A stretch of DNA of 46,694 nt, taken from the IMG/VR virus record IMGVR_UViG_3300005841_000043, positions 1 to 46,694 of that record. One strand, 5' to 3'. Both the position numbers and the translations under genes were made by a program. Source of the DNA: a virus. Shown piece after piece: positions 5,751-46,694 of this stretch. The notes below the pieces were generated by a model, which ran no database searches, was not told the DNA's origin, and saw only the letters and a list, made by a program, of their open reading frames with translations. Each line of letters starts with the position of its first letter. Within the stretch, counting starts at the first letter, position 1.

Positions 5751-5773
5751 AGAGTAGATGAGAGTAGAGTAGA
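5751..5773. repeat. AGAGTAGA direct repeats, candidate operator
   Basis: Three copies of AGAGTAGA begin at 5751, 5761 and 5766 (the last two overlap), immediately upstream of the -35 of the leftward promoter. This purine-rich, relatively AT-rich run stands out from the GC-rich surroundings and is placed where an activator or repressor could bind. Confidence 0.45.
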
Positions 5774-7425: not shown

Positions 7426-7502
7426 CGACCGCTGTCGGAGTGGCGATGCTGGTGGTTGCGGTGATTCTGATTGCTCGACTGGCTGGGGGGAGCGACGAAT
7501 GA
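7422..7502 (+). CDS. Tiny single-helix membrane peptide, 26 aa
   Basis: MTTAVGVAMLVVAVILIARL then AGGSDE: one transmembrane helix with a short acidic tail. Start GTG overlaps the previous stop and its own stop overlaps the next ATG (ATGA), which strongly supports translation despite the length. Role unknown. Confidence 0.55.
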   Translation: MTTAVGVAMLVVAVILIARLAGGSDE

Positions 7503-7738
7503 ACTCCCCGGAGGGGAACGCCGTCTGCTGCTCGTGCGGCCAGGTTGGAATTTCCGAAGGGCATCGGTGCTTACCGGACCGGATTGTCGCGGAAATGCAG
7601 AAGGCCTTCGGGCGCCGCGCGCCTGGGCTTGGCGATGAGTGGCTCGCTGATGTCATTGCCCGTCTGCGGACCGTCGAGCTGACTCACAGGCAGGCGCTGG
7701 ATTTGATCAGCGTCATCACGACCAGGGCGCGCCCATGA
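7499..7738 (+). CDS. Hypothetical protein with N-terminal Cys cluster, 79 aa
   Basis: The N-terminus has C-C-x-C (CCSCG) and H-x-C (GHRC), a possible zinc site, followed by two amphipathic helices (PDRIVAEMQKAFGRR, WLADVIARLRTVEL). Ends in ATGA overlap with the next gene. Family not recognised; lies in the small-gene run before terminase. Confidence 0.7.
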   Translation: MNSPEGNAVCCSCGQVGISEGHRCLPDRIVAEMQKAFGRRAPGLGDEWLADVIARLRTVELTHRQALDLISVITTRARP

Positions 7739-7935
7739 CCCCCGCGTCCATCGAAGCCGCTGCCCGGGCTCTCCACCGCTTCAACGCCCCGCGCGTCGCG
7801 AACGACGTCGAGCCGTGGGAGCAGGTGACGCCCGTGAACCAGGCGCGGTGGCTGAAGCAGGCGGAGATTGCGCTGCGAGCTGCGCGGGATTCGGCGGAGG
7901 CAGAGACCCCGGTTGTCGAGCGTCGTGGGGAATGA
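7735..7935 (+). CDS. Hypothetical helical protein, 66 aa
   Basis: Begins MTPASIEAAARALHRFNAPR, contains VNQARWLKQAEIALRAARDS, ends acidic. The pattern (AAR-L, W-x2-L..Q.R..Y/W, AE.AL.AA) matches small phage proteins of unknown function that carry a conserved alpha-helical core. ATGA overlaps on both sides. Confidence 0.7.
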   Translation: MTPASIEAAARALHRFNAPRVANDVEPWEQVTPVNQARWLKQAEIALRAARDSAEAETPVVERRGE

Positions 7936-8513
7936 CGTTGTCAGCAGGCAGCGACGACACCAGCTTGCTCGGGTCGCCTCGGGGCTCTGTCCTCGGGAAG
8001 GCTGTCGAAGCCAAACTGGCGGAACTCTCTGCGGGGACCACAAGCGCACGCATCGCGCGTACGAAAGAGCGCGACGAAAAGCGCGCCGCGAAGAGAAAGC
8101 AGAAAAAGACGGCGGCAGAGCTGGTGGCGAACGCAACTAAGCAGTTGGCGAAGCTCACGCGGGACCAGGAGCTGGACGAGCAGGCCAAGATTGTCGACCG
8201 GATTGCGCTGCGCGGGCTTCAGACGGCCGAAGGGCTGTTTCTGGAGGCCGGCCAGGAGGGTTACAACGCCGACGCCAGCGTGCCGATGCCGGATGCGAGC
8301 ACGCGAACGCACTTCGCGATGGCCGTTTACAAGCAGATGATGGCGAATCGGCGCGAAAACATGGCCACGGCGAGAGCGCTCGGGGTCGTGGTGCTGAAGG
8401 GCCGGATGGAAGAGTCGGAATGGAACACGGAGGCGCACCGGGTGGACGAGGAGCAGCGCCGGGCGCACGCGATTGACGTGGCGGCCGAGATGGTTGCGGG
8501 GGACGACGAGTGA
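7932..8513 (+). CDS. Candidate small terminase subunit
   Basis: 193 aa; ATG 7932 overlaps the previous stop (ATGA). The N-terminus is variable; residues 45-75 are basic (ERDEKRAAKRKQKKTAAELV), and residues 80-190 are helical (IVDRIALRGLQTAEGLF, TRTHFAMAVYKQMMANRREN, then VDEEQRRAHAIDVAAEMV). Length, basic helical DNA-binding part, acidic end and position three genes before the large terminase fit a small terminase, which recognises the packaging site. No family-specific motif was seen, so this rests on position. A second frame (7925-8140) with Cys/His pairs overlaps its start. Confidence 0.6.
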   Translation: MTLSAGSDDTSLLGSPRGSVLGKAVEAKLAELSAGTTSARIARTKERDEKRAAKRKQKKTAAELVANATKQLAKLTRDQELDEQAKIVDRIALRGLQTAEGLFLEAGQEGYNADASVPMPDASTRTHFAMAVYKQMMANRRENMATARALGVVVLKGRMEESEWNTEAHRVDEEQRRAHAIDVAAEMVAGDDE

Positions 8514-8764
8514 AGGACTACTCGACGCTCGTCAACGGGCAGCCGCCGCCGTTCGTGATTCCGTTCTGCGCGTCCTGTGACGAGCCGGTGGAGCTTTTTA
8601 CGGTCTACTTGTCGCCCGAGCCGGGATATTTCGAGGCCGAAGCGCAGTGCCACGGGAAAACCTCGGGCATTCGCCTGCCGTCGGCCGACTGGGAGGCGCG
8701 GCAGGCGGCCGGCGAGAAGCTGGTGCTGTTCCAGCGGCGGGAGGGCTTCGATAGTGTGCGCTGA
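8510..8764 (+). CDS. Hypothetical protein, 84 aa
   Basis: GTG 8510 in overlap with the previous stop. Contains C-x2-C (CASC) and a later Cys, with beta-rich character (ELFTVYLSPEPGYFEAEAQC). Ends in REGFDSVR, the same last seven residues (EGFDSVR) as the next gene product, although the bodies of the proteins are unrelated. Function unknown. Confidence 0.75.
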   Translation: MKDYSTLVNGQPPPFVIPFCASCDEPVELFTVYLSPEPGYFEAEAQCHGKTSGIRLPSADWEARQAAGEKLVLFQRREGFDSVR

Positions 8765-8765
8765 G

Positions 8766-8912
8766 ATGGACGTTGACCGGCGCGTGGAGGAACTGCGCCG
8801 ACTGCTGCGCGGATTCAGAGACCCCGTGACCGGGAAAATCACACCCCTGCGTATCACGGATGAGCTGGCGGACAAGGTCCTCCGAGAGGAGGGCTTCGAT
8901 TCCGTTCGATGA
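8766..8912 (+). CDS. Hypothetical protein, 48 aa
   Basis: ATG 8766 starts one base after the previous stop. The body is a helix (VDRRVEELRRLLRGFRD), then PVTGKITPLRITDELADK, ending EEGFDSVR. The 13-base stretch GGAGGGCTTCGAT near its end is also found near the end of the previous gene. May be a terminase accessory; not recognised. Confidence 0.65.
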   Translation: MDVDRRVEELRRLLRGFRDPVTGKITPLRITDELADKVLREEGFDSVR

Positions 8913-8913
8913 G

Positions 8914-10413
8914 GTGAGGTCGGTCGACGGAAAAGAGGTCGTCTGGGAGCCCCAGCCGAGGCAAGCGGTCGCGCTTTCGTGCCCGGCGCTGGAGCTTTGC
9001 TACGGCGGGACCAAGGGCGGCGGGAAAACCGACTTCCTGGTCATGGCCTGCATCGAGCAAATCACGCTCTGTCATCAGCGGTTCGTCGAGACGAAGCGTA
9101 AACAGCGCGGCCGGTACATCATCTTCCGAAAGAACGTCAAGAACCTCGCCGACATCATCCAGCGCGCCGAAGAGATGTACCCGGTCATCGACCCGGGTGC
9201 GAAGTGGAACGTGATGGAGAAGCGCTGGACGTTCACCAGCGGGTACAAGGTCGACTTCGCGCACCTCGACGGCCCGAACGACCACCTGGGCTACAACGGG
9301 CAGGAGCTGACCGGGGTCGGGATTGACCAGGTGGAGGAAATCGCGGAGGAGGTCTACCTGTTCCTCGCGATGCAGCTCCGTTCGAAGAACGCGGAGATGC
9401 GTAAGCTGCTTTTCATGCGCGTGACAGCGAATCCCGGCGGGCTTCACGCGGCCTGGGTCAAGCGATACTTCGTCGAAGGGTGCCGCCCGCACAACACGAT
9501 CATCAAGACACAAGTGACCTTGCGGAACGGGAAGAAGCGCGACGTTACCAAGGCGTTCGTGCCCGCCACGCTCTACGACAACAAGTATTTGTGCGAGGAC
9601 GGCGCTTACGAGGCGACGTTGCTCAAGCTGCCCGAGCATTTGCGCCGCATGTACCTCGAAGGCGACTGGGACGTGGTCATCGGCGCGTACTTTTCGCACG
9701 TCTGGAACCGCTCGGTGCACGTCATCCCGTCATTCTCGATACCGGGGCACTGGCCGATCAAGTTCGGCCTCGACTGGGGCACCACGGCGCCCGCGTGCAC
9801 GCTCTGGGGCGCCCAGGACGGAGACGGGAACGTCTACATCATCGACGAGCTTTACGGTCCTGGCATCACCGGCCGGACGTGGGGCGAGAAGATGCTGAAG
9901 AAGCTGGAGCTTCAGAAGTGGTCCCACGAGCGCAAATGGGGGGTCAAGGACATGTACGGGCTCATCGACCGCGAAGCCATGGCTGCGCGCGGGTCGGACA
10001 CCGGTGCAGGCGGCTCGGCGACTCCCGCGGCTGGCATTCAGTGGTGCGGGTGGCGCCTGTTCCCGGCGAACAAGGACCGCGCAGCGGGAAACGAACAGTG
10101 GCTTGAGCGCCTGCTGCTGAAGCCGAATGGGAAGCCCAGCGTGTTCATCTTCGGCGACCGATGCCCGAACTTGGTGCGCACAATTCCGATGCTGATGTCC
10201 GACCCGCACAACCCGGAAGACGTCGATTCGAGCGGCGACGACCATGCATTCGATACTGGCAAGTATCTGCTGCTCGACTGGCCCGTGAAGGGCTCACGGC
10301 CGAAGGACAAGACCGGCGACCAGGACGTCGAACGCTGGCTGGCGATGGCGAAACATCGCAAAGACATGGAGAATGCGCCAGGCGATACCATCACCACTGG
10401 CTACGGAGACTGA
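8914..10413 (+). CDS. terL: Terminase large subunit
   Basis: 499 aa from GTG 8914. ATPase motor plus nuclease that pumps DNA into the prohead and cuts concatemers. Walker A GGTKGGGKT (31-39), Walker B hydrophobics with IDQVEE (137-142), coupling motif TANPGG (171-176). The RNase H-like nuclease starts at FGLDWGTTAP (first Asp, D287), followed by DEL (311-313) and a late acidic pair at GDDHAFD (441-447). Length and motif order are typical. The start is uncertain (no strong ribosome-binding site close by); earlier in-frame codons lie within the previous gene. Confidence 0.95.
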   Translation: MRSVDGKEVVWEPQPRQAVALSCPALELCYGGTKGGGKTDFLVMACIEQITLCHQRFVETKRKQRGRYIIFRKNVKNLADIIQRAEEMYPVIDPGAKWNVMEKRWTFTSGYKVDFAHLDGPNDHLGYNGQELTGVGIDQVEEIAEEVYLFLAMQLRSKNAEMRKLLFMRVTANPGGLHAAWVKRYFVEGCRPHNTIIKTQVTLRNGKKRDVTKAFVPATLYDNKYLCEDGAYEATLLKLPEHLRRMYLEGDWDVVIGAYFSHVWNRSVHVIPSFSIPGHWPIKFGLDWGTTAPACTLWGAQDGDGNVYIIDELYGPGITGRTWGEKMLKKLELQKWSHERKWGVKDMYGLIDREAMAARGSDTGAGGSATPAAGIQWCGWRLFPANKDRAAGNEQWLERLLLKPNGKPSVFIFGDRCPNLVRTIPMLMSDPHNPEDVDSSGDDHAFDTGKYLLLDWPVKGSRPKDKTGDQDVERWLAMAKHRKDMENAPGDTITTGYGD

Positions 10414-10416
10414 CCC

Positions 10417-12783
10417 ATGGACGCATTCACCGAAATCGAAGCATCTTCGCAGCCTGAGCCCGACCTGTCCGTCATGCTCGCACCCGAGCGCGCGGCGCCA
10501 CCCGTGACCGAAGGTCCGTCCGAGAACGCGAATCTTGTCTCTGCACTGACCGAGGACGAACAGAAGAAAATCGTCGAAGCGGTGCTGCGCGACTACGACG
10601 CCGACGTGGACAGCCGGAAGCCTCGAATGATGCGCCTGAAGGAATACCAGGGGCTTTACGCGTCGGTCATGAAGGCGAAGTCCTTCCCGTTCAAGAACGC
10701 GGCGAACGTGAATCTCCCCGTCCTGACGACGCCGTCCATGCAGCTTCAAGGACGCCTGTACGACATGGTCTGGCCGGCCAACGGAAAGATTTTCTACTCG
10801 TCGGCCACCAATCTGGAGGACATGGTCCGCGCGCACGTCACCGAGACCTTCGGCAACGCATACATCCGCCACCGAATGCCCGAGATGGAGCAGGGCCTAG
10901 ACGACACGCTTCATCAGGTGGTCATCTACGGCTCCGCGTTTCGCCGCACGTACTGGAACGCCGACGAGGGACGCGTGTGCTCCGATTGGATTCCCATCGA
11001 GGACTTCGTCGTCGCGAACGACCAGCGCAGCCAGGACCCGTCGATGCGCGACACCGAGCGGTACACGCACGTTCACCGCTACTCGTATTTCACACTGGAG
11101 CGTCTCAGCGACAAGGGCATCTACGAGAACTTCGACAAGGTCAAGCTCACCGACCCGGACGACCCGAAGGAATCGGAGTTTTCCGACCAGCTGAAGAAAA
11201 TCGACGGCAACGCGGCCTCGTCCGAGACCACCATCGAGACGAAAAAGCGGATGGTGCTTGACCAGTATCTCAAGTGGCGCATGCCGAACGCGCCGGACGT
11301 GAGCGCATCCTTCGACGGCAAGCCCCACGCGGTCATCGCGACAATCGACGAGCAGTCGCGCACGCTGCTTCGCTTCGTGGTTCGCGAGGAGCCTGACCCG
11401 GACGACTTCGCGCGCTTCTCGAAGGAGCAGGCCGCGTTCGACGGGTACTTGCAGGCGATGAGCGCGTACCTGCCCGAGGCCCAGGCCGCGCAGACGGTCT
11501 CGGAAGCCGCCGCCGCCATGGGCGCAGAGCTGCCGCCCGACTTCCAGCATCCCATGCCGCCGCCCGTGCCGCGCGGACTGGTCATGGACGAGGCTACCGG
11601 CATGCCGTCCCCGCCCGAGCCTCAGCGGGTGCGTGATATCTCGTCGTTCACGCACTACCGCGCGTTTCCCAGCGAGGGTTTCTACGGCCTGGGCCTCGGC
11701 GACTTCATGGCCGGCCTCAACAAGGCCGTCAACACCATGGTCAACCAGACCATCGACCGCGGCACGCTCCAGCTGTCGTCGCCCGGCTTCATCTCGGCGC
11801 AGTTGAAGGGCCAGCGCGGGTCGGTGAATGTCCAGCCGGGCGAGATGATCGAAGTCGACGCGCCGATGGGGTCCATCAAGGACGGGTTCTACTTCCCGCA
11901 GTTCCCGCCGAATGACCCAAGCATCATGCGCATCGTCCAGATGCTCATGGAGGCGGCCGACAAGATGGTCGCCAGCTCCGACATGATGAGCGGCCAGACG
12001 TCGGGTGCAAATCGCACCGCGAAAGAGGCGCAGATTCTCAGCGAGCAGATGATGATGCAAATCACCGTGCTCGCTCGGCGAATCAAGGGCGCGTTCAAGC
12101 ACGAACTCGACAAGATTTGGCGGTGCTGGGGCGTGTTCCTGCCCGAAGACGAACTCGTCGACATCGAAGGTCACGACGGCGCAGACCCGACGCAGCTGCG
12201 CATCGGGCGGGCGATGTTCACGCCCAATGCGCACGTCACGCCGGCAGCCGACCCGCGGACGAAGACACAGAAGCTGGAAGAGTCGCAGCAGGTCTATCAG
12301 GCGGTCGCGGGAAACCCGTACCTGATGAATCAGCCGCCGCCCGTGCGCGATGCCATCATGCGACAGGTCACCGAGGACGTGTTGCAGGCCCTGGGGGCGG
12401 GCAAGCTGATCAAGCTGCTCCCACCGCCCGGGACGCCCAAGCCCCCGCCGCCTCCCCCGCCCGCGCCGTACTGGCAGGAAGATGCGGGATTCCTGCGCGG
12501 CCAGGACCACCAGGTCCACAAGGACGACAACGACCTGGAGCACATCAGCGGCCATCAACGGACGCTTCAGGGCCCTGCTGGCACGAAACTCGACAAGCAA
12601 GGGAGGGACATGCTGGAGCGGCACATCCGTTTCCATGTCGCCGCTGACATCGAGAAGGCCGGCATGCGACAGCAGCAGATGGAGGCGCAGTTGGCCGGCG
12701 TACTTGGCCCGCAGCTGGGCGCGCCGCCGATGCAGGGTCCTCCGATGAACGGCACGCCGATGCCGATGGGGGGTCCGCAGTGA
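10417..12783 (+). CDS. Portal protein, P22-like
   Basis: 788 aa. Dodecameric ring at the capsid vertex through which DNA passes. Recognised from P22 gp1-type features: an early basic Y-Q-G-L-Y region, NAANVNLPVL, an aromatic wing (ERYTHVHRYSYFTLERL), the conserved SGANRTAKEAQILSEQM helix about residues 530-546 and the following long helix with ARRIKGAFKHELDKIWRCW. The C-terminus is proline/glutamine-rich with a helical barrel-like segment and a GPPMNGTPMPMG tail. Slightly longer than P22 gp1. Supports a short-tailed virion. Confidence 0.9.
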   Translation: MDAFTEIEASSQPEPDLSVMLAPERAAPPVTEGPSENANLVSALTEDEQKKIVEAVLRDYDADVDSRKPRMMRLKEYQGLYASVMKAKSFPFKNAANVNLPVLTTPSMQLQGRLYDMVWPANGKIFYSSATNLEDMVRAHVTETFGNAYIRHRMPEMEQGLDDTLHQVVIYGSAFRRTYWNADEGRVCSDWIPIEDFVVANDQRSQDPSMRDTERYTHVHRYSYFTLERLSDKGIYENFDKVKLTDPDDPKESEFSDQLKKIDGNAASSETTIETKKRMVLDQYLKWRMPNAPDVSASFDGKPHAVIATIDEQSRTLLRFVVREEPDPDDFARFSKEQAAFDGYLQAMSAYLPEAQAAQTVSEAAAAMGAELPPDFQHPMPPPVPRGLVMDEATGMPSPPEPQRVRDISSFTHYRAFPSEGFYGLGLGDFMAGLNKAVNTMVNQTIDRGTLQLSSPGFISAQLKGQRGSVNVQPGEMIEVDAPMGSIKDGFYFPQFPPNDPSIMRIVQMLMEAADKMVASSDMMSGQTSGANRTAKEAQILSEQMMMQITVLARRIKGAFKHELDKIWRCWGVFLPEDELVDIEGHDGADPTQLRIGRAMFTPNAHVTPAADPRTKTQKLEESQQVYQAVAGNPYLMNQPPPVRDAIMRQVTEDVLQALGAGKLIKLLPPPGTPKPPPPPPPAPYWQEDAGFLRGQDHQVHKDDNDLEHISGHQRTLQGPAGTKLDKQGRDMLERHIRFHVAADIEKAGMRQQQMEAQLAGVLGPQLGAPPMQGPPMNGTPMPMGGPQ

Positions 12784-13076
12784 AGCGCCCGCGGTGGCTT
12801 GACCTCGGCGGCCAGGAAATGTCCGAGTTGCGCGACCTGCCGGCGATTCAGATGCTGGTCGAGTGGCTGGAGTGGGAGCGAGCCGCCGCGCGGGACCTAG
12901 TGCTGGCCGCGGCGGTGACAGACGGAGACGTCAGGCTGCGCGCGGGCACGGCGCTGGCGTTCGATGCAATTCTACGCTCGCTCAATACGCCGGTGGCGAT
13001 TGCGGACATGACCGATGAAGAGTTTGTTGACCCGGCCAGAAGGCCATCGCGAAAGGGACCAGATGCTGAAGTTTGA
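12780..13076 (+). CDS. Hypothetical head-region protein, 98 aa
   Basis: GTG 12780 overlaps the portal stop. Mainly helical (LPAIQMLVEWLEWERAAARD, AGTALAFDAILRSLN), with an acidic C-terminus. Found between portal and GroES-like genes, overlapping the latter by 14 bases. Not recognised; possibly a portal or scaffold accessory. Confidence 0.7.
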   Translation: MKRPRWLDLGGQEMSELRDLPAIQMLVEWLEWERAAARDLVLAAAVTDGDVRLRAGTALAFDAILRSLNTPVAIADMTDEEFVDPARRPSRKGPDAEV

Positions 13077-13617
13077 TGAGCTGCCGAGTACGCCCGAGAA
13101 CGACCGGATCATGGTGCGCCCGGATGAGCCGGAATCGCGCTCGAAGGGCGGCCTGTTCATCCCTGAGATTGCCCAGAAGCAAGCCATGTCGGCCACGCTC
13201 ATCGACGCCGGCCTCCGCGCGCGGGACATCCTGTACGATAACGGCGCGAAGATGGGCGACAAGGTGCTGTTCGGCCAGTTCGCGGGCGTCTGGGAGGAAT
13301 GGGACCACATCACCGCGGCGGGTAACGACCCGGCTTGCCTGCATGACTGGGCGCGCGACTCGGAGCGCGACGGATTCCGCCGCGAGGCGTGGCGGTGCGA
13401 TGCATGCGGCGCCGAGCGATTGCAGGAGCCGGTGCTGGTGATGAACGTCGGCGACATCCTGGCCAACGTCAGCAAGGCCGAGCGCCTGCGCACGGGGGAG
13501 CTGAAGATGATCCGCTACGACAACCCTACGCTCCACAAATACGTGTGGCGCGACGAAGTGACCGCGCCGGCCCAAGACTCAACCGCCCCCACCAACGGAG
13601 TGAACTATGCTGCTTGA
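13063..13617 (+). CDS. GroES-like co-chaperonin with inserted zinc knuckle
   Basis: 184 aa; ATG 13063 follows AAGGG by five bases. The Cpn10 fold is seen in PENDRIMVRPDE (11-22), the mobile loop SKGGLFIPE (27-35), MGDKVLFGQFAG (64-75) and VLVMNVGDILANV (124-136). Between the strand at WEEWDHIT (77-84) and VLVM lies an insertion of about 38 residues with C92, H94, C112 and C115, a likely zinc knuckle. A non-Cpn10 tail of about 45 residues follows. Phage co-chaperonins (such as T4 gp31) adapt host GroEL for capsid folding; placement between portal and scaffold genes supports this role. Confidence 0.85.
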   Translation: MLKFDELPSTPENDRIMVRPDEPESRSKGGLFIPEIAQKQAMSATLIDAGLRARDILYDNGAKMGDKVLFGQFAGVWEEWDHITAAGNDPACLHDWARDSERDGFRREAWRCDACGAERLQEPVLVMNVGDILANVSKAERLRTGELKMIRYDNPTLHKYVWRDEVTAPAQDSTAPTNGVNYAA

Positions 13618-14518
13618 TGGACAGACCGACACGGGCACCGATGACGCCGCGGACATCGCAGAGCTGAAAGAGGCGGCTGGCGGCGAGCCAGCGCCCGAGC
13701 GCGCGGAGGCCATCCCGCCAGCGCCCGAGCCGAACAAGCCGGTTGCGCTGACGCCAAAGCTGTCCCGCCGCGCCCAGGCCGAAGAGGACCGTAAGAAAGA
13801 ACTGACGGCGCTGGCAGACACCGTGAAGGAACTGCGCGAGCGCGATTCCCAGCGCGACAGGCAGTTCGGCGAGCTGACCGGTCACCTGTCGGCGCTCGCG
13901 CAGCAGCGCCAGGCGCCGCCGCAGTACCAGGCGCCAGCCCCGCAGGCGCAGATTCCCGACCCCGACGAGCTGATGGCAAAGGCGAACGCAGCGCTCGATG
14001 GGCGCGACATGGGCGCGTACCACCGCTACCTGATGCAGGCCAACCAGGCGGCCACGTTGCGCTCGATGGCTCCCATCCTGGAGCGTGTCCAGTCGATGCA
14101 GCAGGCGCCCCAGCAACAGCAGCAAATCCCCGCCGAGCTGATGGCCTACTTTGCCGCATACCCACAGGTGGCCACCCACCCGGCCAAGATGCAGCTCCTG
14201 ATGGCCAAGAACGCCGAGCTGGAGGCGCGAGGCTTTCGCCCGGGCCCGGAGCGCGTGCGAGCGGCCTTCGAGGAGGTGAACGCCATCGTCAGCAATGGCA
14301 AGCAGACCGAGCGCCCGGGCTTCGACCGCGGCACGGCTGCCGCGCTCTCTGGCACCCCCACCGCGCGCCCGGCGGGTGGCGGCGGACAAGGCAAGGGCGA
14401 GCCTCGCGTCGACCTGACGCCCGAAGAGCGGATGTACTGGAAGAAGGCCGGCTTCACGGACGAGGGCGAGTTGGCGCGAAGCATTGCGCAGTCTCGGCCC
14501 GACCGCGTCGTCCGGTAG
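13607..14518 (+). CDS. Scaffolding protein
   Basis: 303 aa, acidic and helical with Gln/Pro/Ala-rich linkers (QQRQAPPQYQAPAPQAQ), a coiled-coil stretch (AEEDRKKELTALADTVKELR, about residues 60-80) and a compact C-terminus (DLTPEERMYWKKAGFTDEGE) like the conserved C-terminal segment of many phage scaffolds. Gene order portal, chaperonin, scaffold, capsid is standard. It would guide prohead assembly and then leave. Overlaps the previous gene by 11 bases. Confidence 0.75.
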   Translation: MLLDGQTDTGTDDAADIAELKEAAGGEPAPERAEAIPPAPEPNKPVALTPKLSRRAQAEEDRKKELTALADTVKELRERDSQRDRQFGELTGHLSALAQQRQAPPQYQAPAPQAQIPDPDELMAKANAALDGRDMGAYHRYLMQANQAATLRSMAPILERVQSMQQAPQQQQQIPAELMAYFAAYPQVATHPAKMQLLMAKNAELEARGFRPGPERVRAAFEEVNAIVSNGKQTERPGFDRGTAAALSGTPTARPAGGGGQGKGEPRVDLTPEERMYWKKAGFTDEGELARSIAQSRPDRVVR

Positions 14519-14522
14519 TCGC

Positions 14523-14552
14523 TTGACAGTTCCGGAAAAGTAGCAGTACCTT
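14523..14552 (+). promoter_or_regulatory. Candidate promoter for capsid genes
   Basis: TTGACA (14523-14528), 18-base spacer, TACCTT (14547-14552). It lies in the 140-bp gap between scaffold and the next gene, one of the longer gaps of the late region; the rest of the gap shows no gene. A perfect -35 with a poor -10 resembles the elements at 6931 and 7112. Confidence 0.45.
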
Positions 14553-14658
14553 TATCTAGTAGGGCGTAATTCCTCGCGCAGTTTGGCGAGTGTGCCGGCG
14601 ACCAAGTCCGTGTTGACCAACCCGGGTCATCAACGTGAAGCAGGGTCAAAGGACACTC

Positions 14659-15159
14659 ATGAACGTTCCGAGTCGCAATGACGCCCCTTCTGGACTGGAC
14701 CTCCACGCCAAGTCGATGGCGCACGAAATCGCAGGGAAGGACCCCGCGTTCGTGTACGAGTACAAGTCGAAGGACCCGGCGCACCCGCAATACTTTGGGA
14801 ACTACCTGAAGCGCCGCGAGGTCGGCAATCAGGTTGCCGGATTCACGTTCATCGAGCCATGGGAACTCGTCCACGAGGGCGACGTTGAACAGGGTCGCAA
14901 GCGCGCCGACGACACCAAGGGCGTCGACACGAAGGTCACCCACGGGTCGCTGGTGCTCATGCGGACGCCCAAGGCGAACGCGGAGAAAGCGCACCTGATG
15001 AACGCTCGCATGGTCGAGTTGCAAAGCACGTCGCTGCACTCGAATGAGCGCGCTTCGATTCAGCAGACCCGATACGGAACGCAGGTTTTCAGCGGAGACG
15101 CAACCAGCGGCGCTCATGCCGCCCCGGTGGTTTCCTCACAACTGACCGGAGGCAAGTAA
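14659..15159 (+). CDS. Hypothetical structural protein, 166 aa
   Basis: ATG 14659 has AAAGGA five bases upstream, preferred over GTG 14635. The sequence is polar with mixed strands and helices (HAKSMAHEIAGKDPAFVYEY, GFTFIEPWELVHEGDVEQGR, GSLVLMRTPKANAEKAHLMN). Placed between scaffold and decoration/capsid genes, it is probably a minor head protein. Family not recognised. Confidence 0.75.
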   Translation: MNVPSRNDAPSGLDLHAKSMAHEIAGKDPAFVYEYKSKDPAHPQYFGNYLKRREVGNQVAGFTFIEPWELVHEGDVEQGRKRADDTKGVDTKVTHGSLVLMRTPKANAEKAHLMNARMVELQSTSLHSNERASIQQTRYGTQVFSGDATSGAHAAPVVSSQLTGGK

Positions 15160-15160
15160 C

Positions 15161-15763
15161 ATGGCGAACTCGGCTCTGACCGGATTTCGTCCCGTCTACG
15201 TGAAGGGCGGCGGGACCGTCACCTTCCGTCGCGGGCGAGTCCTCACCAACAACACCACGGCAATCTTCCTGTACGACGCGGTTGTCCGGGCGGCCACCGG
15301 CGACTACACCGTGACCGCTTCGACCAACAGCGCGACGGAAGGCAGCTCGCAGGGAGCGGTCTACACCGATGCGCAGGGAATCCGGCGCGAGGCGAAGTAC
15401 CTGCCGGCGACCACGCTCTACACGTCGAGCGGCGTGGCCCCGGACAACGCATCTTACGTCTACCTGGTGGACAACCTGGTCAATACCGTGTTCACCGCGT
15501 CCATCGCGGTCGGCGCGGTGGCTCTGACCGACCTGAACCTGAACCTGATCATGGTGCTCGGGACCGGGTCGACGACCACGGGCCTGTCGGGTCACACCCT
15601 GACCAACGCGAGCAAGAACACCACGGCGACATTCCCGTGGCGCTTCGAAAACTTCGTCATCGGGTCGCCCATCAACGACCCGGACTTGGTGAACACGGCC
15701 GCCCTGGTCACCGCGAACTGCACCTTCGATGAACCGGCCCTGTCGGCCTCACTGGGAGCCTAA
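15161..15763 (+). CDS. Putative head decoration protein
   Basis: 200 aa, Thr/Ala/Gly-rich and beta-like throughout (FRPVYVKGGGTVTFRRG, DNASYVYLVDNLVNTVFT, SGHTLTNASKNTTATFPWRF), with no membrane or signal segment. Immediately upstream of the capsid gene, where many phages encode capsid-decorating or stabilising proteins. The role is inferred from position and composition. Confidence 0.65.
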   Translation: MANSALTGFRPVYVKGGGTVTFRRGRVLTNNTTAIFLYDAVVRAATGDYTVTASTNSATEGSSQGAVYTDAQGIRREAKYLPATTLYTSSGVAPDNASYVYLVDNLVNTVFTASIAVGAVALTDLNLNLIMVLGTGSTTTGLSGHTLTNASKNTTATFPWRFENFVIGSPINDPDLVNTAALVTANCTFDEPALSASLGA

Positions 15764-15768
15764 CCACC

Positions 15769-16665
15769 ATGTCAGCACTCAACATCGCTCAGCTCTACGC
15801 CGCGGTCGAACCCGTCGCGCGCAAGTGGTTCAACTCCGGGATGGGGAAGGACCCGGCCCAGTTCTCCCAGATTGCCGAGGTCAACTCGGTCGACGTCCCC
15901 ATCCGAGAATTCGCGGAGTGGGCCGGCCCGCAGCAGCTGGAACTGAAGGTCGAAAATGCGCCGATGACCGTTCGGACCGTCGCGCTCGGCACCCCAAAGC
16001 GCGTCCAGGTGGCGACCTTCGCGGGCGCCCTGGAGTACAGCCGCGAAGCCGTCACCGACGTGAAGATTTCGCAGCTGAAGACCCCCGCGCAGGCGCTTGG
16101 CCGCGCCGCGAGCAAGACCCCGGAATACCTGTTCGCGCAGTTCCTGGACCGGTCGCACAACAGCGCCTACCCGGTCACCGCGGACAACGTCGAGCTTTGC
16201 TCGGCCAGCCACCTGACCCCGTACGGCACCACGTACGCAAACACGCTGGCGACGCCCGCCGCGCTGTCTGAGACCTCGCTGGAGGACATCCGGACCGCGT
16301 TGCGCACCATGATCGGCCCCGACGGCATGCTGGCCCCCGTCATGCCGAAGAAGCTCATCGTGCCGAGCGCCCTGGACGTCCTGTCCGAGAAGCTCGTCAA
16401 GTCAGAGAAGACCTTGGGCAGCGCGAACAACGACCCGAGCGTCATCCAGGGGATGAAGCGGATGGTGTTCGACTACCTGACCAACACCACGCGCTTCTAC
16501 GTCCAGACCGATGCCGACGACGGGTTCTACTGGGACTGGCGCGAAAAGCCCCAGTTCGAGCGGGACAACGTCGCCCTGACGATGCAGGCGGTGTTCATCT
16601 GCTTCTTCCGCGCGATGTGGGGCGCCGAGAACGCCCGCTGCGTCTACGCCTCCAACGCCACGTAA
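15769..16665 (+). CDS. Major capsid protein, Mu gpT-like (HK97 fold)
   Basis: 298 aa. Pattern shared with Mu gpT-type major heads: an N-terminal helix (IAQLYAAVEPVARKWFNSG), then conserved blocks LYFAQFLD-like EYLFAQFLDRSHN, ATPAALSETSLEDIRTALR with GPDGM, PKKLIVPSALDVLSEKLV, and WDWREKPQFERD near the end, which together form the HK97 fold. It assembles the icosahedral shell. Gene order after scaffold supports the assignment. A Mu-like capsid with a P22-like tail machine is a mosaic combination. Confidence 0.85.
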   Translation: MSALNIAQLYAAVEPVARKWFNSGMGKDPAQFSQIAEVNSVDVPIREFAEWAGPQQLELKVENAPMTVRTVALGTPKRVQVATFAGALEYSREAVTDVKISQLKTPAQALGRAASKTPEYLFAQFLDRSHNSAYPVTADNVELCSASHLTPYGTTYANTLATPAALSETSLEDIRTALRTMIGPDGMLAPVMPKKLIVPSALDVLSEKLVKSEKTLGSANNDPSVIQGMKRMVFDYLTNTTRFYVQTDADDGFYWDWREKPQFERDNVALTMQAVFICFFRAMWGAENARCVYASNAT

Positions 16666-16677
16666 GGAGCCGTCACC

Positions 16678-17676
16678 ATGGCATTTCGTTCAAGCAAGAC
16701 CATCACTGGATTTCCCGGCATGGTCGCCAGCTACGGCCAGCCGAATCCGTCCGGAATCGCCGGGGGACTGGCCCGATACTGGGGCGGCGGCGAGGTCATC
16801 TTCGTGGGCAATCGCTCTGGCCTGAAGGCCGGCGACGGCTCCTCTCCGAACAACCCCATGTCTTCTCTCGTCGGCACCGGTGGCGCGCTCGCGGCACTTC
16901 AGGGCACGACCGGCCGCGGGCATGTGATCTTCCTGCTCCCCGGCTCCTCCTATTCGGTCGATGCGGCCGATTGGGCGAGCGTCATGGGCGCGGCCAGCGA
17001 CTTCGCAATCATCGGCCTCGGCACCGGGACGTCGCGAGCCTCGCTGACATGGACGACCGCGACCTCAACCCTGCTGATGGACACGGCGAACGTTGCTATC
17101 GACGGGTGCCGGCTGTTCCTGGCCGGCGCGAATGCGGCGGGCGCGGCGCTCACCGTGGCGGCCCCCATCACCATCAGCGGACCGGGCTGCGCGCTCCGCA
17201 ACAATGACATCTTCTTCGGCTTCGACGCCGACCAGATTGTCACGGTCGGAATCACGACCACCGCGGCGGCCGACGGACTCACCCTGGAGAACAACACCTG
17301 CATCGGGGCGACCGCCGCCGAGTGCACGACCTTCATGGACATCATCGGCGTCGATCAGTTGCGCATGCGGGGCAACTACTTCGCGGGCGCAACGTCTGCG
17401 ACCGGAGTCGGAATCGTCCGGTTTGCCACCACGGCGAGTCTCGACATCGTCCTGGAATACAACACCTACGTCAACCGGAAGGCGGCCTCCGCGGCTGCCG
17501 TGACCGGCCTGGCGGGCGTCTCCGGGGTCTCCCGGGACGAGATGTTCCACTACCTCGACAACACCAGCACGACTCCCTGGGTCACCTCCCCGGGTATCAT
17601 GTGCTTCTACAATCCGCGCGTTACCAACCTGGCCGGCGAAGTCGGCATGATCCCGACCGTGGTATCAACCGCGTAG
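16678..17676 (+). CDS. Beta-helix-like structural protein, 332 aa
   Basis: Gly/Ala/Thr-rich with recurring N-N and T-x-x-N turns typical of right-handed parallel beta-helices (NVAIDGCRLFLAGA, ISGPGCALRNNDIFFG, LTLENNTCIGAT, LRMRGNYFAGAT). The N-terminus (AFRSSKTITGFPGMVASYGQ) may anchor it to the virion. No catalytic residues identified. Possibly a capsid-surface or head fibre protein that binds sugars. Confidence 0.7.
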   Translation: MAFRSSKTITGFPGMVASYGQPNPSGIAGGLARYWGGGEVIFVGNRSGLKAGDGSSPNNPMSSLVGTGGALAALQGTTGRGHVIFLLPGSSYSVDAADWASVMGAASDFAIIGLGTGTSRASLTWTTATSTLLMDTANVAIDGCRLFLAGANAAGAALTVAAPITISGPGCALRNNDIFFGFDADQIVTVGITTTAAADGLTLENNTCIGATAAECTTFMDIIGVDQLRMRGNYFAGATSATGVGIVRFATTASLDIVLEYNTYVNRKAASAAAVTGLAGVSGVSRDEMFHYLDNTSTTPWVTSPGIMCFYNPRVTNLAGEVGMIPTVVSTA

Positions 17677-17687
17677 GAGGCGCCCGA

Positions 17688-17879
17688 ATGACTCACTTTC
17701 TCGTCGAACAAAAGAGTCTATCCGCGATGCGGACGGATTTCCCTCATTCTCCAACCGATGACGCCGCGTCGTTCACGGATTACGTGGAAGACAAGTTGGC
17801 CAATGGCTGGCGAGTCGTCTCGCACACCGATGCGTCGAATGGGTTCTGGTTCGTCTTCGCATCAGAGGCAAGACCATGA
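17688..17879 (+). CDS. DUF4177-like small protein A, 63 aa
   Basis: ATG 17688 has AGGAGG seven bases upstream; much longer upstream extension is a shadow of the beta-helix gene. Acidic helix FTDYVEDKLANGWRVVSHTD then a beta-strand (NGFWFVFAS), the shape of DUF4177-type proteins (helix, G-W, strand pair). Clearly related to the next gene product, so a tandem duplication. Function unknown. Confidence 0.7.
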   Translation: MTHFLVEQKSLSAMRTDFPHSPTDDAASFTDYVEDKLANGWRVVSHTDASNGFWFVFASEARP

Positions 17880-18079
17880 AGCACGAGAGCAAGAAACAGC
17901 AGCGGTTCAAGGTCTCGAACATGGACTTCGGGGCCCTGGCCGCCGCTTATCCGCACGACCCGGAAGACTTCACGGCATCCATCGCCGACTACATCGAGGA
18001 CATGCACTCGCAGGGCTGGGACTTCATCACCTCGACCCACGACGGCAACGGATACCGTTACTTCTTCAAGGCGGTCTGA
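17876..18079 (+). CDS. DUF4177-like small protein B, 67 aa
   Basis: Overlaps protein A (ATGA). Aligns with it over ASIADYIEDMHSQGWDFITS and GNGYRYFFKAV, against SFTDYVEDKLANGWRVVSHT and NGFWFVFAS in A; the N-termini differ (basic KHESKKQQRFK here). An old tandem duplicate. Cotranscribed with structural genes. Confidence 0.7.
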   Translation: MKHESKKQQRFKVSNMDFGALAAAYPHDPEDFTASIADYIEDMHSQGWDFITSTHDGNGYRYFFKAV

Positions 18080-18097
18080 CCGCGAAAGGGGCCGCAG

Positions 18098-18364
18098 ATG
18101 AGCACCAGACCGACCGACTTCGTCAATGGCGAAGTTCTTACGGCCTGTTCCATCTGCGGTCGCCGCCGCCTCTTCCCGTCGCAGGTCGTTCGCTCGCCTG
18201 ACCGCCTGTTCCGCTGCATGGACTGCAACGAGAAGACGGTCCTGGAGTTCAACCAGGAGATTGCAGCGGCCAGGAGACGAAGACCCGAGCCGGATACCGC
18301 CATCGGCGTAGGTTCGCAGTTCAGCGCCTCGACACCAACCGACGATGATATGGGGTTCCCGTGA
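18098..18364 (+). CDS. Zinc-ribbon protein, 88 aa
   Basis: C17-x2-C20 and C40-x2-C43 (CSICGRRRLF and CMDCNEK) make a classic zinc ribbon, followed by a helix and a disordered tail. Could be a regulator or a nucleic-acid-binding protein; it sits oddly among structural genes. Overlaps the fibre gene by four bases (GTGA). Confidence 0.75.
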   Translation: MSTRPTDFVNGEVLTACSICGRRRLFPSQVVRSPDRLFRCMDCNEKTVLEFNQEIAAARRRRPEPDTAIGVGSQFSASTPTDDDMGFP

Positions 18365-19791
18365 GCGTCAGATACGAAACCGTCACCGCAATGAGAGCAG
18401 CCGCCACAAGCGGGTTCTCTACGGTCACCGCGCAGACGGCCTTTGTCGTGTCGCTCAACGACTTCTTCAAGTTCGTTCGCGGGTCAGCGGCGACCCCGGT
18501 GGCGAACATCATCGTCCCATCGTCAGACGGCCTTGGGTCGTGGCACCGAATGGGAATCCCTCCCCAGGTGGGCGCGGGCGGGCTCCTGGTCTACGACGCG
18601 AATGGGAACGCATCGGCGTACACGCCTGGCGCGACGACGGGGCAGGTGTTCACGTCGAACGGGGCTGGCGTGCCAGGGACGTGGCAGCCGATCGGATCAA
18701 CGAAGTACCTCGGAAACGTCGGGCAGCGCACCTACGTCCCGTCGAGCGCAGGCGGCACGCTGCTGAACATGATGTCGCTGTCCATGCACAAGGTCACGGA
18801 CGACGTGGCGGCCGTCCAATTTGCTATTCCCAACTGGCAGGGAACGAACGAGGCAGGCCCCGGCGCCGCGTCCGTCGTCAAGGTATCGATCCAGTTCCCA
18901 GACGGCACGCTCGTTCCAATCTTGGTCTCTGGCTCTACGTCAGTCTCGATTCCAGATGGTGGCATGATCTGGACCGATCCATTCCCGTGGACCATCGCCC
19001 GCAATACGTGGTTCGGAATTCGAATCTACCGGACGAACGCGGTCGGATGCCCGTACACGGCCAACGTCCAGGACCACGCACTTGGCGAGCGCATCGAGTA
19101 CAACGCGGGCGTTGACAAGACGCTGAGCGGGACGATCAGTGCCACGGAAACGGCGCCCTGGGCCGGCCCATGCGGCATCCGCGGCCTGATGACTCGGCCA
19201 TCGGTCACCCTGATCGGAGACTCTCGCGTCGCAGGCGAAGGAGACACCCCCAACGGAACCGGGGCCATCGGCGAATACGCGCGCAGCCTGCAAGCAGCAG
19301 GGCTCGCTTGGCAGAACCTTGCCATCGGCGGCACTGGCGCCAACGGGTTCCTGTCGGGCTCTCACACGCACCGAATCGCTCTGGCGTCTCTCTGCTCGCA
19401 CATGATCACGGAGTACGGAATCAACGACCTCCTTCTGGGCGACGCCCAGATGCGCGCTGACCTGAATTCCATCAACGCACTTCTTCCCGCAGCACAAAAG
19501 AAGTACGTTGGCACGATGGCTCCGCGGACGACGTCAAGCGACGGATGGGCGACCGTTGCGAATCAGACGGTCACCGCCCAGGAGTCGACGCTGCTCGCGA
19601 ACAACAACTGGCGGCGGACAATCCCCACGGGGTTCATCGGATGTTTCGACGTCAACGCCATCCTGCAAAGCGGGATAACTGGCAAATGGCTCGCCCCCGG
19701 CTACACCGCCGACGGCCTCCATGGCAGCGCCACGGCGTACGCCGCAATCCTCAACAGCGGCATCATCACCGCGGCGAACTTCACGCTATGA
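18361..19791 (+). CDS. SGNH-hydrolase tail fibre/depolymerase
   Basis: 476 aa. Residues 1-110 are a fibre-like stem (LLVYDANGNASAYTPGATTG); 115-275 a beta-rich domain (VQFAIPNW, WFGIRIY). Residues 282-475 form an SGNH/GDSL esterase: TLIGDS with catalytic Ser288 (block I), IGGTGANG (block II Gly), YGIND with Asn355 (block III), and DGLH with Asp451 and His454 (block V). All catalytic residues are present. Such domains remove acyl groups from capsule or O-antigen during adsorption. GTG start in overlap with the zinc-ribbon gene. Confidence 0.85.
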   Translation: MSVRYETVTAMRAAATSGFSTVTAQTAFVVSLNDFFKFVRGSAATPVANIIVPSSDGLGSWHRMGIPPQVGAGGLLVYDANGNASAYTPGATTGQVFTSNGAGVPGTWQPIGSTKYLGNVGQRTYVPSSAGGTLLNMMSLSMHKVTDDVAAVQFAIPNWQGTNEAGPGAASVVKVSIQFPDGTLVPILVSGSTSVSIPDGGMIWTDPFPWTIARNTWFGIRIYRTNAVGCPYTANVQDHALGERIEYNAGVDKTLSGTISATETAPWAGPCGIRGLMTRPSVTLIGDSRVAGEGDTPNGTGAIGEYARSLQAAGLAWQNLAIGGTGANGFLSGSHTHRIALASLCSHMITEYGINDLLLGDAQMRADLNSINALLPAAQKKYVGTMAPRTTSSDGWATVANQTVTAQESTLLANNNWRRTIPTGFIGCFDVNAILQSGITGKWLAPGYTADGLHGSATAYAAILNSGIITAANFTL

Positions 19792-20504
19792 CCATCGGCG
19801 CAACGGCCAGCTTTGAGGAAAGTCGGGACGATATTTTGTCCGAAGCCCTCGAAAATCTTGGGGCCATAGCCCCGGGGGAAGTCCGCGACGCGACCAATTC
19901 CAACCTATTCACCATGGGCGAGCGCGCCCTCAACCGACTGGTCAAGCAAATCGGCGGCTCCACCGGCGTCAGCCTGTGGCACTTCCAGCGACGCACGTAC
20001 ACGACCGTCGCCGGCACCGACAACTTCGTGACCGCGTCCGACGTACTCAGCATCGACGGCCCAATCCGCTACACCCGCGCAGGCGCCACGTCGTCGCTCC
20101 AGGGCCTGCCGATGTCGCGGCACAACTACATGGAGCTGGCCGACCGGACCACGCCGGGGCCTTCGACCACGTACTACGTTGAGCAGCTGCTGACGACCAC
20201 GACCGTCTACTTGTGGCCGGTGCCCGACGCGACCGGCGATACCATCGAGTACACCGTCTGCGTACGCGGGGCTGACTTCACGTCGGGCAGCGACACGCCT
20301 GATTTCTGGGCCGAGTGGACGACGTGCCTCGTGTACGGCCTGACCGCGGAGCTTGCGCCGAAGCTGAGTCAGACCGCGCTCATGGACAGGTACAAGCCGC
20401 TCTTCGAGGCCGAATTGCGCAAGCTGGCCGACGGTGACAACGAACGTGGAAATCTCACCCTGGTGCCCTTCGGTGCCTCAGGCAACTTCGGGGGGGCCGG
20501 CTGA
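19788..20504 (+). CDS. Head-tail adaptor, P22 gp4-like
   Basis: 238 aa; ATG 19788 overlaps the preceding stop. Begins with a helical motif (SRDDILSEALENLGAIAPGE, ALNRLVKQIGGSTGVSLWHF) followed by W-x-F-x-R-R-T-Y and T-x-x-G-T-D-N-F, then an extended middle and a C-terminal helix (LMDRYKPLFEAELRKLADG). This layout matches the head-completion/adaptor proteins that bind under the portal (P22 gp4 and relatives). Adjacent to other tail genes. Assignment by overall pattern. Confidence 0.7.
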   Translation: MTIGATASFEESRDDILSEALENLGAIAPGEVRDATNSNLFTMGERALNRLVKQIGGSTGVSLWHFQRRTYTTVAGTDNFVTASDVLSIDGPIRYTRAGATSSLQGLPMSRHNYMELADRTTPGPSTTYYVEQLLTTTTVYLWPVPDATGDTIEYTVCVRGADFTSGSDTPDFWAEWTTCLVYGLTAELAPKLSQTALMDRYKPLFEAELRKLADGDNERGNLTLVPFGASGNFGGAG

Positions 20505-43119: not shown

Positions 43120-43346
43120 CGCGCCCCTCGCTCTCTCGCGGCGTTCCGCAGGGTGACACGGCCCATCTTGCTGTCGACCCGGTATATCCAGTCGCGCGGA
43201 ACCGCCCGCCGTTCGCCCGACTCCAGCTCGATGCCGATGGGCTGGCTGCCAACGTTGACCACGCCCGGGACGTTCTCCTGGCCAAGGACGACGCGGCAGC
43301 GGGCGCCGCGGTCGGGGCCGCTCCGGATGACGTACTCGCCGCTCAT
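43116..43346 (-). CDS. Hypothetical beta-rich protein, 76 aa
   Basis: ATG 43346 in ATGA overlap. Compact beta protein (SGEYVIRSGPDRGARCRVVL, GQPIGIELESGERR-like VGSQPIGIELESGERRAV, RDWIYRVDSKMGRVTLRN). Similar in size to small OB- or SH3-like domains, but not recognised. Follows the recombination ATPase. Confidence 0.7.
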   Translation of the reverse strand: MSGEYVIRSGPDRGARCRVVLGQENVPGVVNVGSQPIGIELESGERRAVPRDWIYRVDSKMGRVTLRNAARERGAR

Positions 43347-44296
43347 GCCGCCCTCTTTGCAAGCTCCGCCCGGATGGCCTCGCGTTGCTCCGTTGTCCAC
43401 TTCAGTCGCTTGCCGTTTGCGGCGTCCTTCGCGTCGGCGTACGTCGGCGCGATGGCGATGGCGTCGAGCAGGTCTTGCAACGCCTCGGGCGTCGGGGCGT
43501 CCGTGGTCGGATCGGCAGCAGGCGGCGCGGCCTTCTGCGCAGGCACACCTCCAGCAGCCCAGCGCGCAAGCTTCTCGCCGAGGTCCTCCGACAGTGGCTC
43601 CTTCTTCGCGAAGATGTCGCGGAACTGGCCAGGCAACTTGATAATCGCCTTCTCGCCCTTCTCTTCAGGCTGCCATGACGGCACGCCGCCGCTCGACGGG
43701 TAGAGCAGCACGTTCAAGCTCATCTCGTACACGAACTCTTCGCCGGCCACCGGCATCCAGCCCAGCGAAGCTGGTTTCGCCGACGACAGGTCCATCTTTT
43801 CCTTCGCACGGAAACAGAGCAGGAAATTCACCGGCATCTGGAGCATGGCGTTTAGCAGCTTGGCCCGGTCTGACTTCGGCTTCTGCCACGCTGACATCTT
43901 CACCTTGTCCAAGGTCGTCTTCCACTGCGCGGCGAGCTTCTGTGCCTCAGCCTCGTGCATCTCCAGCACGCCGCCGACCCCGGCGTGTTCGTGCGAGAAA
44001 CTGTCGATTACGATGGTCTTGGCTCCCTGGCTCACGCAATGCTCAATGGCCGCGAGGTAGTCCAGCGGGCCGAACGGCGCCTTGAAGTCCAGATGTTTGA
44101 ACTTGAACGCGTCCGCGTAGTACAGCGACCGCCGCGCCTCGGTGTCGATGACGTAGATGTCGCCGCCGCTCACGCGCTGGATGCCCGTCGCCAGGCGCAG
44201 CGCTGAGTAGGTCTTGCCCGACCCGCTTGCCCCTACCAGGCCGATCAGCAGCGGCACTTGCTCGCGCGTCGCTGGTTTGCTTTCGAAGGTTCGCAT
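43343..44296 (-). CDS. Sak4/RecA-like recombination ATPase
   Basis: 317 aa. Walker A GASGSGKT (22-29), short core with GGDIYVIDTEARRSLYYA (44-61), Walker B K-T-I-V-I-D-S (93-99), and the long C-terminal region rich in Ala/Pro. This RecA-like fold of about 200 residues plus extension is typical of phage Sak4 single-strand annealing/ATPase proteins (AAA_24 family). Paired with the neighbouring exonuclease it should perform single-strand annealing recombination in place of a full RecA. Confidence 0.85.
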   Translation of the reverse strand: MRTFESKPATREQVPLLIGLVGASGSGKTYSALRLATGIQRVSGGDIYVIDTEARRSLYYADAFKFKHLDFKAPFGPLDYLAAIEHCVSQGAKTIVIDSFSHEHAGVGGVLEMHEAEAQKLAAQWKTTLDKVKMSAWQKPKSDRAKLLNAMLQMPVNFLLCFRAKEKMDLSSAKPASLGWMPVAGEEFVYEMSLNVLLYPSSGGVPSWQPEEKGEKAIIKLPGQFRDIFAKKEPLSEDLGEKLARWAAGGVPAQKAAPPAADPTTDAPTPEALQDLLDAIAIAPTYADAKDAANGKRLKWTTEQREAIRAELAKRAA

Positions 44297-44305: not shown

Positions 44306-45148
44306 CTAGAACGGCGGTGGTTCGTTGCTGGCGGTCATCTCGGCGCCCTGGCGCTCCATCTCCTCTGCCAATTGCCAGGCGCTGGCCTCGATAGGCGCAC
44401 CCTGGTAACCCGGGAACTCGCCCGTCTTCAGGCACTCTCCCCAGATGCGCTTGGCCCGTCGCCACTTGCGTTCCCCTAGTTCGCGCATCGTCCCGCCGAA
44501 AGAGACCACATTGATCGCATAGGCGTCGCGGCGTGACTTCTCGCCAAAGATGAGCTTGAACGTCACCCGGCCCGCGAGGTGCGGATACTTTGTCTCGATG
44601 CCTTCGACGTACGCCGCCCCCTGAATGTCGTATCCATACGAGACCACGGACCGCGTGATGCCTTGCTGACTGGCGTCCTCGGTGGACTTCAGGTCGTAGA
44701 CGATGGCCCGCGCTTCGTCGACGATGAGGTGATCCAGCTTGCCCCGGCACGGCACGCCATCGGACTCCCAGTCGACGGTCACCTGCGACTTCCCGGTGAA
44801 CTCGATGTCATGGGCCACAAGCTGCGCCTTCCAGGCGTCGACGATGGCTTGCTGGGCCGCGAGTTTCTCCCGGAGGATTGGCAGCTTGCCGGCCAGCTTT
44901 GCCGCGGCCTTCGCCTCCTGCGCTGCTTTCGTGCGCCAGTCCGCCGCATCGACGATGACCAACTCCGGACCGACTCCCAGTAGCAGTCGGTCGAGCAGTT
45001 TCCCTTGGTCCTTGTCGTCGGTGTCCTCGGACTTCTCGTCACCGCCCAAGCGATGCTGTGTCCAGGCATGCAGCGGCGACTTCGACAGCAGCACCTTCGC
45101 GCAACTCGGCGACAGACGCGGAACCTCGGCGCCCCATGGCGTGGTCAT
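44306..45148 (-). CDS. PD-(D/E)XK exonuclease, RecE/YqaJ-like
   Basis: 280 aa; ATG 45148 in ATGA overlap. Catalytic block G-K-L-D-H with D139, followed by V-Y-D-L-K (D152, K154) in AIVYDLKSTEDAS, then Q176-x3-Y180 (DIQGAAYVEGI): the D-(D/E)-x-K and Q-x-x-x-Y motifs of phage alkaline exonucleases. It would resect double-strand ends to make 3' tails for the adjacent Sak4-like protein. Replaces the Red-alpha or RecE function. Confidence 0.88.
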   Translation of the reverse strand: MTTPWGAEVPRLSPSCAKVLLSKSPLHAWTQHRLGGDEKSEDTDDKDQGKLLDRLLLGVGPELVIVDAADWRTKAAQEAKAAAKLAGKLPILREKLAAQQAIVDAWKAQLVAHDIEFTGKSQVTVDWESDGVPCRGKLDHLIVDEARAIVYDLKSTEDASQQGITRSVVSYGYDIQGAAYVEGIETKYPHLAGRVTFKLIFGEKSRRDAYAINVVSFGGTMRELGERKWRRAKRIWGECLKTGEFPGYQGAPIEASAWQLAEEMERQGAEMTASNEPPPF

Positions 45149-45712: not shown

Positions 45713-46694
45713 CTACGCCTCGACCCCATAGGTCAGTGCCGGGTCAGCCTCGCACTGTGCTGGCGTAAGGTCCGTAGCCTGCCACTTGCGCGCGGCGCGA
45801 GCGGTGCGCAGTTCTTCGTGCACCGGCTCGTAGTAGATCGGCTGGTCACCGAGCTTCAGCGGAGGCGACTGCTTGCGTAGCAGCTTCGACCCGTCGGAGC
45901 AGGCCACCAACGCGTAATGCAGCTCGGTCTTCGGGTCGGTCCATTCATCGGAGGTGGCCCCGCCGAGCAGGTCAACGATCCAGGCCCACCCGGCGTTCTC
46001 GCCGATGGCACGTCGCTCCTCGGTGTTGCGGATGGCCAGATACTCGTCCTTTGTGTACGACCGGGGCGCCAGGATGGCCTTCGCGGGGACGCGAGTCCCG
46101 TGCCATGAGTAGAGCTGCCAGCCATCGCGCCACGCGATGCTCGGTCCGGTCGCGCTATGCGGCAGGTTCCGATCGTCGCGTCCGATGACGGTTGGCCGGT
46201 CAGCGACGATGCAGAACCGCCTATGCATGAAGCGCGGCCCGGCATGGACAGCGGCGGCCTCGTAGTGGGCGAAGGCCGAATACTGCGGCAGGTCCAGTTT
46301 CGCGACGTGCCGAAAGAACGACAGGTAGGCGACCCAGCCCGACCACATGTTCCCGCCGCACCAGAACCGGTACCACCGACTTGAGCAACCGACGAGGAAA
46401 CCCACGACGCGGTTCAGGTCGGTGGCGGCGTAGGTGGCGGCGTAGGTGGCGGCGCTGGTAGCGTCGTAGGTAGCGGCGCTGGTAGCGTCGTAGGTAGCGG
46501 CGTCGGTGGCGGCGTAGGTAGCGGCGTAGGTGGCGGCGCTGGTAGCGGCGCTGGTAGCGTCGCGGGTAGCGGCGTCGGTAGCGGCGTCGGTAGCGGCGTC
46601 GGTGGCGGCGTAGGTGGCGGCGTCGGTAGCGTCGTAGGTAGCGGCGCTGGTAGCGTCGTAGGTAGCGGCGCTGGTAGCGTCGTAGGTAGCGGCG
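45713..46694 (-). CDS. Repeat/DUF6745 protein, C-terminal part (begins at 572)
   Basis: Continuation of the gene starting at 572, entered at base 46694. Repeats run to 46418; then 234 residues of a DUF6745-like domain: an aromatic region ([20 protein letters not shown]), the conserved [46 protein letters not shown] and a charged C-terminal part ([20 protein letters not shown]). In the family the block FCxVxDRP-x-x-I-x-x-D, G-P-A-x-x-Y-x-D-G-W, WHG-x-x-V-P is typical. If the join were wrong this piece would still be a 230-aa protein from GTG 46405, but an open frame upstream with in-phase repeats argues against that. Confidence 0.85.
46418..46694 (-). repeat. 12-bp tandem repeat, right end part
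   Basis: About 23 copies of the 12-bp unit, continuous with 1-164 (about 36-37 copies together). Each unit codes X-(A/D)-A-T in the leftward frame; X codons are TAC, GAC, AGC or CGC. The joint at 46694/1 gives one extra Ala codon while keeping the frame. Confidence 0.97.

Follow-up and report, generated by a model that had tools for sequence, protein, structure and literature searches.

The TAL effector contains a long array of near-identical 34-amino-acid units in which one or two residues differ, and its DNA code is known. The phage array reported here is likewise a long array of near-identical units, without homology to the TAL effector and without a known ligand. Targets of diversity-generating retroelements are, like the protein described here, phage proteins with concentrated variable residues. 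The closest parallel is the zinc-finger array of PRDM9: according to PMC3890296, its repeats are homogenised except for a few codons, its units are turned over rapidly and diversity is found at the recognition positions. Homogenised repeats, quick unit turnover and diverse variable codons were also found in the phage array; however, the two are non-homologous, and the phage units comprise 4 amino acids instead of about 28, without zinc ligands and without known DNA binding. In the literature searched, no paper was found that mentions DUF6745 or the array sequences, and none of the papers listed for tetrapeptide-repeat or phage tandem-repeat proteins describes such an array protein.

A DUF6745-family gene at the two ends of a phage contig

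With its 46,694 bases, the DNA stretch analysed here (referred to as the window) makes up an entire IMG/VR viral record, which is classed as linear. It contains terminase, portal, capsid, head-closure and tail genes, and megablast of positions 1-20000 against named phages gave zero matches. The features at and near its two ends are as follows:

1-166, minus strand: left part of the array, about 13 units X-(A/D)-A-T (12-bp/tetrapeptide repeat)
167-572, minus strand: N-domain of the split gene (DUF6745 family), GTG start at 572, homologous to the N-domains of L002, L016, L019 and L020
553-984, minus strand: HNH endonuclease gene, directly upstream of the split gene, whose start it overlaps (phrog_826, 2.6e-43)
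988-1311, minus strand: small upstream gene; its counterpart in L002 (94% identity) adjoins the DUF6745 gene
43343-44296, minus strand: phrog_1366 gene of unknown function, same direction, weak Sak4-like match
44306-45148, minus strand: exonuclease VIII-like gene, downstream, same direction, early/recombination region (phrog_412, 9.2e-42)
45713-46420, minus strand: C-terminal DUF6745 domain (PF20530) plus tail, E=1.2e-10, stop at 45713, 91% identity to L002
46421-46694, minus strand: right part of the array, about 23 units, frame running on from base 1

By means of Tandem Repeats Finder a 12-bp array was located at both ends, at 6-166 (13.4 copies) and 46421-46694 (22.8 copies), which bears out an initial sequence-only reading that had noticed the same repeat there. 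The leftward frame proposed in that reading was also confirmed. On the minus strand it starts at GTG 572, runs down to base 1, continues at 46694 and ends at 45713; it comprises 1,554 nt and 517 amino acids with zero internal stops, and encodes an N-domain, an (X-[A/D]-A-T)n array and a DUF6745 C-domain in this order. That a single gene spans the ends, as had been suggested, is supported by relatives in which the whole architecture is present in one ORF. In L002, a phage contig of 38.1 kb, the gene is intact, a single ORF of 615 aa containing about 60 AAT-X units, and N-domain, array and C-domain are likewise contained in a single ORF in L016, L019 and L020. Since the relatives encode all of it in one ORF, the combination of an N-domain, a period-4 array and a C-domain in one frame, which runs across the ends in the window and is directly readable in these four relatives, is beyond chance. 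The N-domain had been called unique, but it is conserved in relatives across the family.

Literal joining of the ends creates one 15-bp unit, read SAAAT (AATSAAATYDAT), inside an otherwise 12-bp register, with the frame kept modulo 3, and an exact overlap of at least 12 bp between the window ends was not found. Due to these two observations the 46694/1 junction as written is probably untrue and the earlier count of about 36 tetrapeptides is unreliable; at the true junction, bases are probably missing or the ends overlap slightly. Exact terminal redundancy of the contig was rejected, as no sequence of at least 12 bp is shared by the two ends. Of the initial suggestion of a circular or terminally redundant molecule one part stands, as the data fit a circular-mapping genome, whereas the exact terminal overlap is lacking and the record is classed otherwise.

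In six other contigs (IMG/VR 3300028577_000090, 3300049374_000004, 3300006028_000021, 3300043444_000523, 3300044836_000039 and 3300003665_000008), the N half and the C half of the gene are likewise located at opposite ends, from which it follows that assemblies break within the array; these contigs are probably circular-mapping genomes broken at this position. Among the 47 array-bearing viral matches described below, 20 have a contig end inside the array. The window is therefore best read as a circular-mapping phage genome, the physical circularity of which we infer, opened by the assembler at the array. One DUF6745-family phage gene would thus have been broken inside a coding minisatellite. 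This explains a practical nuisance, namely that contigs stop in such arrays, so that phage genomes seem linear or incomplete and the gene seems to be two fragments.

The HNH gene is located between the 988-1311 gene and the DUF6745 gene and is absent at the equivalent place in L002; it is therefore probably an insertion. In relatives, the neighbours are helicase, RecT, DNA methyltransferase, HTH or RepA genes. Together with the exonuclease VIII-like and HNH genes of the window, these replication and recombination genes assign the gene to the early DNA region and not to the virion region.

Tetrapeptide arrays in viral DUF6745 proteins

The HMM comparison that had been proposed for the C part was performed and yielded a match to PF20530 with 41.5 bits, above the curated cut-off of 27. 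All 24 full-length array-bearing relatives examined matched the same profile, and the DUF6745 residues H, GP, DG, WHG..VP and N.E.RR are conserved (alignment A1, with H67, G71, P72, D78, W85-H86-G87, P91, N111, E113 and R115-R116 among the invariant columns). The Pfam domain spans neither the N-domain nor the array and gives no function.

Tetrapeptide arrays are a common feature of phage DUF6745 proteins and not peculiar to this phage. They were found in 47 of 80 viral DUF6745 matches, while 8 of 80 cellular matches pass the same repeat score. The backbone types among the 80 viral matches include GAV-X, SAV-X, SQV-X, DSV-X and AAT-X. Arrays at the same place are present in phage cta39025 as (SSL-X)n, in gp38 of the M. 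abscessus prophage prophiGD102-1 as (DQL-X)n and in a Nocardia plasmid protein as (AQV-X)n. In the DUF6745 ORF of L017, the place of the array is taken by an Ala/Asp/Val-rich stretch without clear period, which is followed by an extra C-terminal part (HYARQGDVCIQV) resembling the 988-1311 gene of the window.

Some viral DUF6745 genes with a length of about 290-320 amino acids lack the array. Stand-alone QV-X-s or QL-X-s ORFs are located within 3.5 kb of 14 of the 30 array-less viral DUF6745 loci, several of which are on near-copy contigs, so that the independent cases are fewer than 14. In total, 55 such ORFs were counted in 178 kb near array-less viral loci; of the 47 fused loci, 2 have stand-alone arrays nearby, and of the 70 cellular loci none has. 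The stand-alone ORFs keep start, frame and stop, and V or L at every fourth residue is common to fused and stand-alone arrays. The finding that the array is fused to DUF6745 in one set and adjacent to it in another suggests that the two act together. Adjacent short ORFs consisting nearly entirely of QV-X-s tetrapeptides, often with the N-terminus MKSV, were observed in L313, L314, L325, L338, L356, L371, L375 and L390. Within the L313 and L375 clusters, several paralogues share unit blocks in differing order.

Structural models were obtained with AlphaFold2. The N and C domains were modelled with confidence, the array was modelled as helical with low confidence (pLDDT mostly 37-63), and for neither model was a fold match found in the PDB at E≤0.001; a binding face is consequently not defined. 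Since the units have 4 residues, they are neither zinc fingers as in PRDM9 nor 34-residue helix-loop-helix units as in TAL effectors.

Variation and turnover of the repeat units

In order to describe the variation within units, the bases differing from each array's own majority were counted at the 12 positions in 53 arrays comprising 1,309 units. The arrays were chosen by amino-acid periodicity, which is neutral towards silent changes; many exceed the read length, were taken from assemblies and could be partly wrong. Non-majority bases amount to 46% at X1, 25% at X2 and 25% at S2, and to between 0 and 1.1% at the remaining nine of the twelve nucleotide positions, among which are the third positions of each of the four codons. 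Summed up, X1, X2 and S2 contain 1,249 non-majority bases out of 3,941, compared to 39 out of 5,316 at the four third-codon positions, an approximately 43-fold difference. Such an excess over silent sites at contact codons is a property of the PRDM9 type, with X as the putative contact residue here. The early impression that the repeats vary only at set positions was nearly right, except that in the window's own array one alanine codon also varies silently at its third position (GCT/GCC).

In 1,268 of the 1,309 units, residue X belongs to the set R, G, D, W, Y, H, E and S; it is almost never aliphatic, and AAC as well as most NNC codons are missing at X. The 46 arrays with at least 10 units belong to 28 C-domain clusters at 60% identity and use 28 backbone codon triplets, and in 35 of them the b and v codons of the unit X-s-b-v are each one single codon throughout. 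Codons that are uniform inside arrays and different between them are as expected of concerted evolution under protein-level constraint. With the two halves of the window counted apart, 36 of these 46 arrays contain positive, negative and aromatic residues at least twice each. The unit order is near random in most arrays, which suits diversity but is unlike a conserved sequence code. The net charge of the arrays ranges from -0.7 to +0.35 per unit and gives no hint of a single ligand type; on account of this range, we rejected the ideas that the arrays mimic DNA or bind nucleic acids generally through their charge.

Comparison of close relatives revealed changes of entire units. The flanks of the prophages L045, L055 and L068 are about 98-99% identical, but their arrays comprise 39 units, about 6 units and 56 units, respectively, and between L045 and L068 the order of X shows no more similarity than after shuffling (p=0.47). 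In L206, L214 and L269, the C part is identical over 400 nt; exactly two units separate L214 from L269, and L206 contains a replaced block. The L185 array has 94 units. Gain and loss at the level of units between close relatives, again a property of the PRDM9 type, points to turnover of the arrays by slippage or unequal exchange of whole units. Reverse transcriptase (PF00078) was absent in 26 records including the window, while positive controls were detected. In these records, the linked reverse transcriptase of a diversity-generating retroelement target is thus lacking; the protein varies by repeat units and not by template copy.

Interpretation of the array and rival explanations

On balance, we lean towards a PRDM9-like coding minisatellite which reshuffles a putative interaction surface, with DUF6745 as the fixed partner. 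The protein consists of fixed N and C modules connected by a tetrapeptide array X-s-b-v (X-A/D-A-T in the window), in which the three variable nucleotide positions determine residue X and the adjoining small or acidic residue. According to the preferred reading, unequal exchange and slippage would even out the backbone and rearrange a limited number of unit types. Selection, for which the contrast with the silent sites argues, would keep X diverse and polar, aromatic or charged, as at the contact residues of the PRDM9 zinc fingers. More tentatively, the array may be a modular surface that interacts with a changing target and works together with DUF6745 as the constant module; it would probably act in the phase of early DNA replication, recombination or host takeover.

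The whole-unit insertions and deletions, the existence of array-less relatives such as L036-L040 and the low-confidence array model would also be expected of a neutral low-complexity linker created by slippage, in which the variation at X is tolerated mutational noise. However, neutral mutation would strike silent third positions equally or more, and these vary about 43 times less than X1, X2 and S2. Moreover, aliphatic residues are nearly absent at X though one base change away, and the same pattern is written with different codons in many lineages, so that a neutral linker is regarded as unlikely. A somewhat smaller probability is given to a length contingency, where the array acts as a spacer of adjustable length or as a phase-variation element separating the working domains and the number of units matters instead of X. 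The difference in length among near-identical prophages (about 6 to 56 units) and the 94 units in L185 agree with this explanation, but a 12-bp unit never shifts the frame and thus cannot switch the gene off, the diversity of X is left unexplained, and stand-alone array genes are not spacers.

Limitation of the variation to three nucleotides and the near-random unit order in most arrays are compatible with targeted diversification, in which a diversity-generating retroelement or another site-directed mutator alters X1, X2 and S2 directly. This is considered improbable due to the lack of PF00078 in the 26 records, the absence of AAC and most NNC codons at X and the fact that allele pairs differ by whole-unit indels. 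A DNA-level element that is incidentally read through, such as origin iterons or a packaging or partition site, would suit the replication and recombination genes nearby; yet the same protein pattern is produced from 28 codon triplets in 46 arrays, the arrays retain V, L or T at every fourth residue although their DNA is not conserved, and start, frame and stop are kept in the stand-alone ORFs, which makes this explanation scarcely credible.

Under the preferred reading of a reshuffled interaction surface, the array protein, which is found in dozens of phages, looks like a previously undescribed, fast-evolving binding surface. If true, this would be a widespread diversifying phage protein with a very short repeat unit, which evolves like PRDM9 and without reverse transcriptase, and a testable function would be available for the uncharacterised DUF6745 domain family. 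A more specific version, which we hold to be doubtful, is that the array represents a new minimal recognition scaffold with one variable residue (positive, negative, aromatic or small) per 4-residue unit. Phages would reshuffle it, either fused to DUF6745 or as clusters of small genes, and follow a changing target, e.g., a host defence protein or nucleic acid.

The PADLOC nicking endonuclease profile PDLC03396 matched the SAV-X array of L045 (5.7e-10). As this match falls in the low-complexity array, an assignment of L045 as a nicking endonuclease was set aside; tetrapeptide repeats of a different protein family may have been included in this profile.
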